Shown here: piece by piece, positions 178-56,252 of the stretch | Position numbering within the stretch: position 1 is the first letter of the stretch | How the letters are laid out: every line of letters begins with the position of its first letter | NCBI GenBank assembly: GCA_004335835.1 | Contig: RWJK01001544.1 | Location: 22,814 to 86,813, forward strand | Direction: 5' to 3' | Source: Scenedesmus sp. ARA3 | Taxonomy: Eukaryota > Chlorophyta > Chlorophyceae > Sphaeropleales > Scenedesmaceae | DNA: 64,000 nt | The notes under the pieces: model-generated | What the model was told of the DNA's origin: nothing | The model's input: the letters and a program-made list of their open reading frames with translations, nothing else | The model's database searches: none | Translations under genes and position numbers: made by a program

Positions 178-236
178 CATGTACTCCTTCTTGTACTGCG
201 CGTAGTTTATCATGTTGTCTCCAAACAACCAAGCCA
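178..236 (-). repeat. Downstream echo of the 3' end of the binding-protein exon 6
   Basis: The exon 6 ending FGDTLTLNYAQYKKEYMEV recurs here as FGDNMINYAQYKKEYMEV and is followed by the same kind of donor (GTGGGGC against GTGGGTG). It lies in the intron after exon 6 and is not needed for the reading frame. Confidence 0.7.
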
Positions 237-451
237 AGCATGCACTGGCCATCAAACAATTGGCCCAAGATACACAGCACAGTTGGTCCAGCTGCCGCCG
301 CCACTCCATGTCCTCCTTCTCACACTGCGTACCAACCCCACCAGCCACTTGTTGCACAAGGAAACAAGCAAACACTGCATACACATCACACCCGCCTGCA
401 CATCACTGAAGTTACACTGGGGCCTTGCCTCATCCCAGCCGCCCCACCCAC

Positions 452-52900: not shown

Positions 52901-55900
52901 ACGTGTCAGGCAGCCAGTTCCTGGAGCCCGATGGCACCTTCCCCAACCACATCCCCAACCCGGAAAACAAGGCAGCCATGGATGCAGCAGTGAACGCAGT
53001 CAAGCAGTCAGGTAAGGCCTGCTGCTTCTACTGCTGCTGGTGCTGTATTGCCAGTGCATTGTACAGCAGCAGCCGCATGTTGCCTGCAGAACAAGGATGC
53101 AGATTTACACACGCATTGTCTGCATGACGCAACTGCTGCTGCTGATGCCGCCACTGGCGCAGACCTGGGCGTCGTGATCAATACGGAAGTTGAACACTTC
53201 CTATCGCTGCTGCTGCTGCTGCTGCTGCTGCTGCTGCTGCTGCAGGCGCCGACCTGGGCATCGTGTTTGACACTGATGTTGACCGCAGCGCGATCGTGGG
53301 CAGTGACGGCACGCCCATCAACAGCAACAGGTTCATCGCGCTCACGGCGGCCATCGTGCTGCAGGTGCGGCAGCGGTTGATGATTTGGTAATGATGATGA
53401 TGTGGTGATCAGGGTGCTTGATAACATTTAGCGGCCATTTGCTGGCGCTGCTCATTGGCGTACCCCCTCAAAGGTTTGATCTGAGTCGCTGCATGATCTG
53501 TCAGGAACGCATGCCAGCGAATGAGCGCTTGATGTGTGCCACGGTGCTCACCCACCGTTGCTGAGAATGGGATTTAGCGCCATGTAGAACTTGTACGTGC
53601 ACACTCACAGACGCACCTCGCGCTGCTGCCGCCGCCGCTGCTGCTGTTGCTGCTGCTGCTGCTGCTGCTGCAGGAGCACCCGGGCAGCACCATTGTAACA
53701 GACAGTGTGACCAGCAATGGCTTGACTACCTTCATTGAGCAGAGAGGCGGCAAGCACTTCAGGTGAGCGGCTGGTTGCAAGACGCAGCAGCAGCAGCAGT
53801 AGCAGCGGCACATTGAACTAGGCACGGTGCTGTGTTTGTAGATGACATGTTTCTTCTTCTTGACCACCGAGTTTCTGTCACTGATTGCAGCACGCCTTGC
53901 CCTTTGGCTATCAGCTTAGTTGGTGTTGCTGCTGCTGCTGCCGCTGCTGCTGCAGGTTCAAGCGCGGCTACAAGAACGTCATCAGCAAGGGAGTGGAGCT
54001 CAACAAGCAGGTGACCGCAGCGCCCACGCGTGGAGTGCTCTGATTTTGGCAGCAGCTTTGGAGTGCTGTTGCACGCCATTTTGGCCACAGCTCTGCTGCA
54101 GCTGCCCTGCAGCAATCATTATTCGCAAGTGCAGCTGTTGTTGAGTGTCCTCAGTCACAATCTGTATTTAAAAAAGCAGGTTTCAATAGAACCGGCGTCA
54201 TGGCACTGCTGCCTGCAGGCAGCTGTTATGATCAAGCGAAGCGCAGCGCACAGGCACCAGACCACTGCATGTGTATGTCCCTTGGTCTAGACTTGCATGA
54301 TGTTGCAGACAGCTGCTCAGAGTAAGACCAACACGCACACATGCTTGTCACATGCGTCATGTTACACATGCCACAGGGTGTGGACTGTGAGCTGATGATG
54401 GAGACCTCGGGCCACGGCGCCATGCGCAGCAACCACTACCTGGATGACGGCAGCCACCTGGCGCTGACTGCGGTGGTGGCCTTCGTGCGCAGCAGGCTGG
54501 CCTCGGGCGGTGAGTAGTGTCATAAGGGTGCTTGCGCATGCGTACAGCAGCGGCAGCTTCAGCAGCCAGTTCATGCTGCCCGATTGCGCTGAGCCATGCA
54601 GGCTGAACGTTCACATAAGCCCCTGCTTCTCTGTTCTGTCACTTCTGTCTTCGACACTTTGTTTGTGCATTTGAAGTTCTCTTCTGCACGTACTGAATAG
54701 CATGTTGTAACGCCTTTCCTGCAGGCGCTGCCGGGCTGGGTGAGCTGCTGGCGGACTTGCAGGAGCCCGCAGAGGCAGCAGAGTACCGCATTGGCATCAA
54801 GGTGGGCCCCAGCCTGGGTGGCACAGCGTGTCCCTGTCACTTTGCTATTCAAACTGCTGCCTTTCAGCAATGATGTTCATACAATGGTTGAACATGGTTG
54901 AACAGTGCAGGGCGGTACTGCTGCGGCTGCTGTTTGTCTGCTGTTTGTTGTGGGGGTGACAACCCCACCCTGCAGGACCCTGACTTCCATTCGATCGCTG
55001 CCAGGCCTTCCATGCTTGGGTGCAACGGACATCTCTGCTGCTGCTGCTGCTGTCTGTGTTCCCGCCACGCCACCCGCCTGCCCACCTCCTGCCTTTTCTC
55101 CCAGGACCCGGACTTCAAGTCAGCGGGCAGCAGCATGCTGCAGGCCTTCCACAACAAGGGTGGCTGACGCTACTGTTGCTGCGGTTGTTGATTGTCTGCT
55201 GTTCCAACCCTACCCTGCAGGACGCTGACTTCAAGTCAGTTGGCAGCAGTGTGCTGCAGGCTTTCCATGATTGGGTGCAGGCTGGCGCCGGCAGCAGCAG
55301 CAGCAGCAGCTGGAGCCTTGAGCCGGTCAACCATGAGGGCTGGCGGGTCAATGTGGACGAGGGCGCTGGCAAGCGCGGCTGGGCGCTGCTGCGGCAGAGC
55401 CTGCATGACCCGCTGCTGGTGCTGAATGTGGAGAGCGACGTGCCTGGCGGTGAGGCTGATCTTCTGTGTGTTTTGTTTTGAGAAGAGAGACGCTGGGCTG
55501 GTGGTGGCAGCAGCGGTGCCGTGACGAGGTTGTTATGTGACCCACTGCTGGTGCTGAATGTGGAAAGCGACGTGCCTGGCGGTGAGGCTGCTTTGGTTTG
55601 GTTTAGGTTGATCTGGCAGCATTATGCGATGCACACAGAGTTGCCCATGAGGAGATTTCATTGCGTCCGAGATGCAGAGGGCGCTTCAGCAGCTGTTGCT
55701 GCTGCTTGACTGATGTATAAACCAGCGGAATCCACCCAGGTGAGGGTGCTGGCAAGCGCGGCTGGGCGCTGCTGAGGCAGAGCCTGCACGACCCGCTGCT
55801 GGTGCTGAATGTGGAGAGCGACGTGCCTGGCGGTGAGTTGGGATGCTTTGGTTTGGGTGTGTTTGGTCTGAAACAAAGACGCACCCTGAGCTGAACAGAA

Positions 55901-56252
55901 GTGGTGCAGGGGCGGTGCTATAATGAGCTTGATGTATGACCTGCTGCTGGTGCTCAAAGTGAAAAGCGGTGTGCGTGAGGGTGGGGCTGTGAAAGGCTGC
56001 TTGCTCAGGGAGCACCTACAGCTGCTGGCAATTCGATATTTGCATGAGAGATGTGCTGCCGGGTATGTGTTCATGTTTTCGTTGCCAGGAGGCGCTTTGG
56101 TGTGTGTCGCTGCTCTGTCGATTTGTAATCGAGGCTTTGTGTCTGCTGCTACTGCTGCTGCAGGCGAGGCTGCCATCCGCGGCAATGTGCTGCAGTTCTT
56201 CATCAAGCTGCAGCAAGCACAGGCCCTAGACCTGGCAGCCCTGCAGAATTGA
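49946..56252 (+). CDS. Phosphoglucosamine/phosphomannomutase-family enzyme, probably plastidial
   Basis: Thirteen exons join in phase: 49946-50162, 50469-50569, 50919-51060, 51504-51703, 52369-52545, 52879-53011, 53246-53364, 53674-53762, 53956-54010, 54377-54509, 54725-54801, 55221-55449 and 56164-56252, giving 586 residues. Alpha-D-phosphohexomutase marks are present: the phosphoserine loop GSIMLTASHMPMHNNG, the metal site FDTDVDR, METSGHGAMRSNHYLDDG for sugar binding, and a C-terminal phosphate-binding segment GWALLRQSLHDP. The last differs from the usual SGTEP loop, as I recall for plant phosphoglucosamine-mutase-like plastid proteins. The N-terminal about 50 residues are rich in Ser, Arg and Ala without acidic residues after position 8, like a transit peptide. 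Substrate (glucosamine-, mannose- or glucose-phosphate) is not settled by the sequence. Two further in-frame ATGs lie upstream (49775, 49844). Confidence 0.88.
50631..50658 (+). repeat. Echo of phosphomutase exon 2 end
   Basis: AGCAGGGGCGTGACAGACAT, then TAAG and a GTAGCA donor, repeats the exon 2 end SRGVTDVK in the following intron, as SRGVTDIK. Confidence 0.75.
51405..51459 (+). repeat. Echo of phosphomutase exon 4 start; catalytic Ser replaced
   Basis: GSAVTGSVMLTAAHVPMH follows its own CTGCAG acceptor and copies the exon 4 start GSAVTGSIMLTASHMPMH. The catalytic Ser of TASH is Ala in the copy, so a protein using it would lose the phosphate-carrying residue. Confidence 0.82.
51834..52226 (+). 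repeat. Two ~260-base tandem units repeating phosphomutase exon 4 end plus intron start
   Basis: The exon 4 end (EGGLGKPDIAAILEGAAAKC through to AFVLRQ) and the first ~130 bases of the following intron are repeated. Copies of the exon part lie at about 51834-51964 and 52096-52226. The first keeps the frame. The second has lost one base near its end (GACTCAACCTGG against GACTCGATTCTGG) and is frameshifted. Both end in CAG followed by GTGAGG. Confidence 0.85.
52609..52654 (+). repeat. Echo of phosphomutase exon 5 end
   Basis: AVDAGNGSGGFFASQ followed by GTGCATAC copies the exon 5 end AVDAGNGSGGFFATQ and its donor. Confidence 0.82.
53152..53205 (+). repeat. Echo of phosphomutase exon 7 start; metal ligands lost
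   Basis: GADLGVVINTEVEH mirrors GADLGIVFDTDVDR of exon 7. All three metal-binding Asp residues are changed (N, E, E). Confidence 0.75.
53208..53242 (+). repeat. (CTG)n merging into the exon 7 acceptor
   Basis: About eleven CTG units run straight into CTGCAG, the acceptor of phosphomutase exon 7. Similar runs precede exons 3, 5, 6, 8, 9 and 13 of the same gene. Confidence 0.85.
54976..55166 (+). repeat. Two upstream echoes of phosphomutase exon 12 start
   Basis: Exon 12 starts DADFKSVGSSVLQAFHDW. The intron before it holds DPDFHSIAARPSML (54976-55015) and DPDFKSAGSSMLQAFHNKG (55105-55166), each following a CAG acceptor. Confidence 0.8.
55530..55980 (+). repeat. Three downstream echoes of phosphomutase exon 12 end
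   Basis: The exon 12 end SLHDPLLVLNVESDVPG recurs at about 55530-55581 (DPLLVLNVESDVPG), 55744-55832 (GAGKRGWALLRQSLHDPLLV and on, nearly perfect) and 55933-55980 (LLLVLKVKSGVREG, worn). Each is followed by a donor-like GTGAG or GTGGG, and parts of the adjoining intron start (TTTGGTTTGG) are repeated too. Confidence 0.83.

Follow-up and report, generated by a model that had tools for sequence, protein, structure and literature searches.

Directional copies of exon edges at steps of about 120 bp in the introns of a green alga

In a 64,000-nucleotide stretch of the genome of Scenedesmus sp. ARA3 (the window, positions 22,814-86,813 of contig RWJK01001544.1), introns carry truncated, diverged copies of the edges of the exons that they adjoin. 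Copies of an exon's 5' edge lie mainly upstream of it and copies of its 3' edge mainly downstream, most keep their splice dinucleotide, and successive junctions follow one another at a step of about 120 bp. The repeats fall over exon-intron junctions more often than randomly placed segments do, homology on the intron side is frequently lost, and the differences between exon and copy are disproportionately synonymous. We tentatively favour an account in which segments spanning junctions are duplicated in units of about 120 bp and some of the resulting copies remain under selection.

The assembly is a draft (87.3 Mb in 1,567 contigs), from which we examined the window together with a 200-kb contig (C800, 14 kb of it N) and a 50-kb contig (C903, 5 kb of it N), amounting to 314 kb or 0.36% of the genome. 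A gene finder trained on this sequence predicted 36 genes with 532 exons and a splice consensus of CAG/GTG at donors and TGCAG/G at acceptors; it took some copies for exons and merged some genes, which touches every edge count given below. PGM_PMM and armadillo-repeat domains were found in the window. Of the gene names used here, that of the phosphomutase was checked, while binding protein, malate dehydrogenase, SET-ARM and deacetylase are taken from the original prediction, an earlier reading of the same stretch. Five tblastn stretches of the phosphomutase are 97.5-100% identical to one annotated protein of Tetradesmus obliquus (lower-scoring stretches extend into introns or are themselves copies), and on C800 an alanine aminotransferase agrees at 98% with a T. 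obliquus protein. Judging from these two proteins, the alga is therefore T. obliquus or a very close relative.

Of 843 candidate edges of predicted exons 40 bp or longer, 21 were left out because of N, repeats or a short neighbourhood, and 822 were tested (414 acceptor, 408 donor). A copy lay upstream of the acceptor edge in 78 cases and downstream in 26, and downstream of the donor edge in 74 cases and upstream in 35. The predicted side thus held copies at 152 of the 822 edges and the other side at 61, against a chance rate of 0.13% in 3,190 mismatched edge-neighbourhood comparisons. The copies are consequently real and extend beyond the window, and the polarity put forward in the original prediction stands out clearly against mismatched pairs. 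When 60 of the wrong-side matches were recounted, 43 lay on another predicted exon, the outcome to be expected where a copy has been predicted as an exon; the other 17 were unexplained. In two genes checked against proteins (the phosphomutase and the aminotransferase, with 30 exon boundaries entered by hand), 16 copies were found at 10 edges, every one on the predicted side, and 30 wrong-side tests gave no match.

Anchoring the repeats to exon edges yielded 133 exon-copy pairs, all of them direct local repeats that include the splice junction. The splice dinucleotide is kept in 112 of these (AG in 55/66, GT in 57/67), bearing out the claim that copies retain their splice sites. In the protein-checked set, 7 of the 30 entered boundaries lack AG or GT; five of the 16 copies, at two such aminotransferase boundaries, show neither, and the other 11 do show the dinucleotide.

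Comparison of the window with itself by BLAST gave 54 pairs at E<=1e-3. Some are distant or inverted, and direct repeats with spacings of about 90-530 bp occur where they had been predicted. Within 1 kb on C800, 147 repeat pairs are direct and 4 inverted, and the three sequences together hold 240 direct pairs spaced 40 to 1,500 bp. The only inverted repeats within 1 kb on C800 at the threshold used are palindromes of 34-94 bp, 89-100% identical (8982-9075, 27689-27761, 67851-67884 and 179415-179493). On other contigs, profile searches, which are insensitive to short copies, gave by eye three pairs of overlapping range among 59 matches for the chaperonin family, which fits the pattern, and no nested pair among 13 matches for aldehyde dehydrogenase.

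The edge test returned 16 families in the window, of which 11 were judged to start from true edges; the other five (942, 51833, 51964, 52111 and 55740) take a copy for the true edge. At either end of the series, the outermost copies reach 175 and 55980, close to the predicted limits of 178 and 55980. Between one and five copies per junction had been claimed; we find one to three in the window and up to five over all three sequences. Five true edges of the phosphomutase (51504, 51703, 52545, 55221 and 55449) were confirmed with proteins. The features are listed below, with S and N denoting synonymous and nonsynonymous differences from the exon.

452-689, minus strand: binding-protein exon with both edges copied (true edges 452 and 689; gene finder, edge test).
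175-229, minus strand: donor (3') edge copy of exon 452-689, 277 bp downstream (BLAST, edge test).
752-784, minus strand: acceptor (5') edge copy of exon 452-689, 95 bp upstream (BLAST, edge test); a Tandem Repeats Finder (TRF) array of period 153 spans 752-1105 at the 5' edge copies of this exon.
883-942, minus strand: second 5' edge copy of exon 452-689, 253 bp away (edge test).
1036-1095, minus strand: third 5' edge copy of exon 452-689, 406 bp away (edge test).
6925-7037, minus strand: exon named malate dehydrogenase (name unchecked), true edge 6925 (gene finder, edge test).
6802-6847, minus strand: donor edge copy of exon 6925-7037, 123 bp downstream (BLAST, edge test).
14795-15194, minus strand: SET-ARM exon, true donor edge 14795 (gene finder, edge test).
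14274-14703, minus strand: three donor edge copies of exon 14795-15194, with edges at 14657, 14518 and 14274 (138, 277 and 521 bp off; BLAST, edge test).
15336-16001, minus strand: SET-ARM exon, true acceptor edge 16001 (gene finder, edge test).
16067-16709, minus strand: three acceptor edge copies of exon 15336-16001, with edges at 16125, 16399 and 16709 (BLAST, edge test).
17040-17099, minus strand: donor edge copy of SET-ARM exon 17295-17884 (true edge 17295), 255 bp downstream (BLAST, edge test).
45111-45246, minus strand: direct repeat over the acceptor of deacetylase exon 44981-45126 with its upstream copy, 94 bp apart (BLAST, gene finder; name unchecked); this predicted pair, 45111-45151 and 45205-45246, was found by BLAST only.
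51504-51703, plus strand: phosphomutase exon A, true edges 51504 and 51703 (checked against proteins P0001-P0003).
51405-51458, plus strand: 5' edge copy of exon A, 99 bp upstream, AG kept, S 2, N 3 (BLAST, protein-checked).
51846-51964, plus strand: copy B, 3' edge of exon A, 261 bp downstream, GT kept, S 8, N 0 (protein-checked; in P0001).
52108-52226, plus strand: copy C, 3' edge of exon A, 523 bp downstream, with a one-base deletion, S 10, N 1 (protein-checked).
52611-52655, plus strand: 3' edge copy of the phosphomutase exon ending at 52545, 110 bp downstream, S 3, N 0 (BLAST, edge test, protein-checked).
55105-55151, plus strand: 5' edge copy of phosphomutase exon 55221-55449, 116 bp upstream, S 4, N 3 (BLAST, protein-checked).
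55538-55581, plus strand: 3' edge copy of exon 55221-55449, 132 bp downstream, S 2, N 0 (BLAST, protein-checked).
55742-55832, plus strand: 3' edge copy of exon 55221-55449, 383 bp downstream, S 3, N 0 (protein-checked; in P0002).
55933-55980, plus strand: outermost 3' edge copy of exon 55221-55449, 531 bp downstream, S 3, N 6 (protein-checked, edge test).

The spacing of the copies is regular. Over the three sequences, 101 families (60 with a single copy, 41 with two to five) provide 168 junction-to-junction steps, some of these families starting from a copy taken as the true edge (5 of 16 in the window). Of these steps, 127 measure 80-170 bp (median 119, standard deviation 16.5 among these), and the remaining 41 include 36 of 200-280 bp. 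The exact value is soft, since a circular test on 161 exon-copy distances put the best period at 130-135 bp (R = 0.56). Distances in the protein-checked genes are 95-158 bp (nine copies), 239-261 (two), 367-383 (two) and 481-531 (three), approximately multiples of about 120 bp. Measured to the nearest copy (n = 72), the distance is 120 ± 15 bp, with a copied exon part of 51 ± 15 bp (r = 0.25), and spacer length falls as copy length rises (r = -0.60); such near-independence of distance from copied exon length is expected if the whole unit, and not the exon piece, has a fixed size. Distances of up to 200 bp showed no clear excess of multiples of three (23/53).

The repeats also concentrate at junctions. 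Among 95 clusters spaced at most 170 bp, 82 lie over a predicted junction, 10 are fully intronic and 3 are intergenic or at a gene edge, and the 40 clusters with full-unit homology divide similarly (32, 7 and 1). Random 120-bp windows, by comparison, span a junction in 33% of cases and are intronic in 30%, exonic in 18% and intergenic or at an edge in 19%, i.e., 52% span among those that either span or are intronic. The size of this excess is uncertain, since slower decay of exon sequence and copies called as exons both inflate the spanning class. Cluster density is 4.41 per 10 kb in genes as against 0.76 between them. That the copies lengthen introns, as originally proposed, is plausible from published means (462 bp in T. 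obliquus and 230-302 bp in four other green algae, according to Table 1 of PMC5966456), yet our own comparison of predicted introns lends it no support (262 bp with copies, n=93, vs 293 bp without, n=401) and is confounded by copies that, called as exons, split introns.

In contrast to the exon side, the intron side of the copies is poorly preserved. Over the anchored pairs, identity is about 90% on the exon side and, going into the intron, approaches the control level inside about 20 bp. For a gapped comparison we removed 31 of the 133 pairs, in which the predicted exon ended within the match. The remaining 102 have a mean gapped identity of 0.56 on the intron side, vs 0.40 in controls, and 36% of them lie above the 95% control level; about two thirds thus have no clear homology there, and this includes pairs whose exon parts are 95% identical. 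A single duplication followed by neutral decay predicts alignable flanks at that identity, which holds for about a third of the pairs. Outermost copies have homologous flanks in 27% of cases (5% in controls), and 57 of the 240 direct pairs, with overlapping arrays counted, are full-unit tandem pairs, 66-97% identical. In the phosphomutase array A-B-C, the introns behind A and B are 13% diverged, whereas the sequence downstream of C is unrelated to either past about nine intron bases, with the three exon parts equally alike. In the aminotransferase array, exon heads are near-identical and spacers visibly different. These flank patterns suggest that the intron part is either lost quickly or was in part never shared. 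Upstream of the aminotransferase array (C800, about 121315-121725) lie some four units of about 70 bp with a 13-bp head of the same exon, an apparently older array, so that copies of two lengths adjoin.

The substitutions bear on what has happened to the copies since. A neutral copy compared with a constrained exon should give an S/N of at most about 0.75 (transition weight 2). We counted 273 S to 139 N and 2 stops between exon and copy in shorter alignments, 326 S to 171 N in longer alignments of the 102 pairs (bootstrap ratio 1.55-2.37), and 51 S to 14 N in the two protein-checked genes. Between copies the count is 222 S to 224 N, where about 0.38 would be neutral. A three-way comparison in 42 families assigned 40 S:13 N to the exon only, 34:7 to changes common to the copies and 157:154 to changes private to one copy; private changes differ from the exon-unique and shared ones (74:20) at p = 8e-7. 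The families differ in S/N beyond chance (p = 0.004), as they would if some copies are kept while others decay. All p-values are optimistic, as copies were treated as independent though some share an array or an exon. The copies thus appear relaxed relative to the exons, yet not neutral.

According to the account that we favour, segments of about 120 bp over exon-intron junctions would have been duplicated again and again, building arrays of junctions at that step within introns. Splicing would take the junction attached to the exon body and spare the protein, so that a copied 5' edge could survive on the upstream side alone and a copied 3' edge on the downstream side alone. We infer that the duplication events are mostly old, the intron part having since diverged or been replaced, and that a share of the exon parts may be under purifying selection at the protein level because some transcripts use them, the remainder decaying. 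Two copies are in line with this: copy B and copy 55742-55832 occur as in-frame extra exons in P0001 and P0002, respectively, which model the same T. obliquus gene, located on a 6.2-Mb contig of an independent assembly. Their presence there argues against assembly error for these two, and the annotators accepted both.

Several observations weigh against this account. The annotation of the two copies may be computational. All eight copies of the aminotransferase gene are missing from its T. obliquus model (P0121, representing seven members), and P0003 and P0122, proteins derived from transcripts of relatives, likewise lack copies. A far-end splice site scoring above 3 is present in only 35 of the 102 copies (above 4 in 25%, vs 16% of the 485 positions used as controls); only 29 have good sites on both sides, and their lengths show no bias towards multiples of three (11 of 29). 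General use as cassette exons is not supported by these numbers. The possibility that the copies are regular alternative exons, which would have undone the original prediction, applies in part, through the two annotated copies; complete exon copies, at 29 of 102, are not the general rule. In-frame read-through of the spacer as a general use was likewise rejected, being available to only 11 of 102 copies. Moreover, S/N is 1.77 and 1.94 in copies unlikely to serve as in-frame exons, near the overall value; complete in-frame copies reach 3.88, in only 11 copies (p = 0.08). Lastly, flank homology is unrelated to exon identity (35%, 38% and 35% in three identity classes), and only 43% of inner array copies have homologous flanks, neither of which simple decay predicts.

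The main rival, possible but in our judgement less probable, is that the copies are neutral and derive from, or were gene-converted with, diverged alleles of the same exon, through unequal exchange between homologues in a population that is diverse or hybrid. On this reading, the excess of synonymous changes would be allelic divergence and not selection on the copies, leaving a similar S/N signature. Such an origin would explain why the excess is alike in copies able and unable to be in-frame exons, and it fits the near-identical heads beside more different spacers of the aminotransferase array, the near-symmetric third-position GC/AT changes (109 to 105) and the weak correlation between synonymous and nonsynonymous divergence (0.15), although detection by identity also weakens that correlation. 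It requires, however, some 10-20% synonymous divergence between alleles; no second phosphomutase gene was found in the assembly, protein differences to the other strain are few, judged by eye, and unalignable flanks at 95% exon identity are left unexplained.

The original prediction held that junction-spanning tandem duplications are followed by neutral decay and spliced out. Its polarity, local duplication origin, unit size and junction excess (82/95 clusters) stand, and some families are rich in replacement changes; the view of the copies as merely tolerated junk does not, S/N being well above the neutral ceiling, and we consider this version unlikely. Pooled BLAST pairs had appeared to favour it, with mismatches of 8.5, 8.8 and 17.4% at codon positions 1-3 (10.2, 9.6 and 18.5% where one copy is exonic) against 17.8% in noncoding columns, a neutral pattern. 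That tally mixed in unanchored pairs and doubtful exon calls and was dropped in favour of the anchored pairs, where the mismatches are 5.6, 3.2 and 15.9%.

It is more doubtful still that an exon-edge piece with a few intron bases was inserted locally beside unrelated spacer, by templated repair or staggered-nick fill-in. The average end of homology within about 20 bp, copy C's departure from A and B and the low flank homology of outermost copies would all suit insertion, but a near-constant distance with varying copy length (r = -0.60) would be odd for it, and many arrays show full-unit homology. Intron birth by duplication of an AGGT segment (the Rogers model), in which a donor region matches its own acceptor region, is compatible with the CAG/GTG and TGCAG/G consensus but highly improbable, as none of 58 listed pairs inspected by eye has a donor within 3 bp of the acceptor offset and in 16 both copies carry a predicted site of the same type at matching offsets (within 1 bp). 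An assembly artefact, conceivable in a draft of 1,567 contigs, is hardly credible when divergence from the exon amounts to at least several per cent in most copies and the peptides of two occur in an independent assembly's proteins, which nearly refutes it for those two.

Tandem exon duplication, including mutually exclusive exons, places extra coding copies adjoining an exon. The alga resembles it in having coding copies near the exon, perhaps partly constrained at the protein level, and differs in that the copies are mostly truncated edges. A duplication crossing an intron-exon boundary is known from potato, where the single case described in PMC4974935 likewise took along the acceptor and exon head; that one event made a new intron, whereas the alga has many junctions, often with several copies at about 120-bp steps in introns, and most of its copies lack splice sites at both ends. 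The AGGT model (Rogers 1989, Hellsten 2011, Gao and Lynch 2009, as presented in PMC3443670 and PMC4974935) shares the premise that splicing tolerates tandem duplication of short genic segments, but it pairs donor with acceptor, and the alga pairs donor with donor and acceptor with acceptor. Introners (PMC9860276) are short insertions that shape introns and form families dispersed over the genome; the phosphomutase stretch, by contrast, matches elsewhere over only 31-62 bp, at trinucleotide-rich places. Spacers as a mobile family found no support: for 73 spacers, among the matches listed (25 of 179), one was at the same locus and 24 were between CTG-rich spacers. In our searches of the open literature, judged by the titles and abstract openings listed, we found no earlier description of this copy pattern.

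Other repeats were noted in the window. Runs of (CAG)n/(GCT)n are very frequent throughout (e.g., 16410-16517, 46475-46538 and 63701-63755), often in predicted exons, where they encode poly-Gln, poly-Ala or poly-Ser. At 39961-40038, a 41-bp unit is doubled at 97% identity, a recent tandem duplication of another size, and short A+T-rich tandem repeats at 46034-46088 (TATATATATGGGTG) and 42924-42952 (ACATT) are conspicuous in a GC-rich genome.

Taken together, nearly one predicted junction in five (152/822, with copy edges counted) carries copies at a regular step. In practical terms this is a hazard, since gene predictors call such copies exons, as happened here and may have happened in the models of the other assembly. 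In a genome of this kind, the shaping of introns by local duplication and the choice of splice sites among near-identical competitors could be studied directly, as could the question of whether intronic coding fragments are under selection. A bolder possibility, which we regard as improbable, is that the introns hold a selected stock of spare exon edges at a fixed step of about 120 bp, spliced in or exchanged with the true exon and so staying coding; were this true, protein variants would evolve through arrays of junctions and not through duplication of whole exons.

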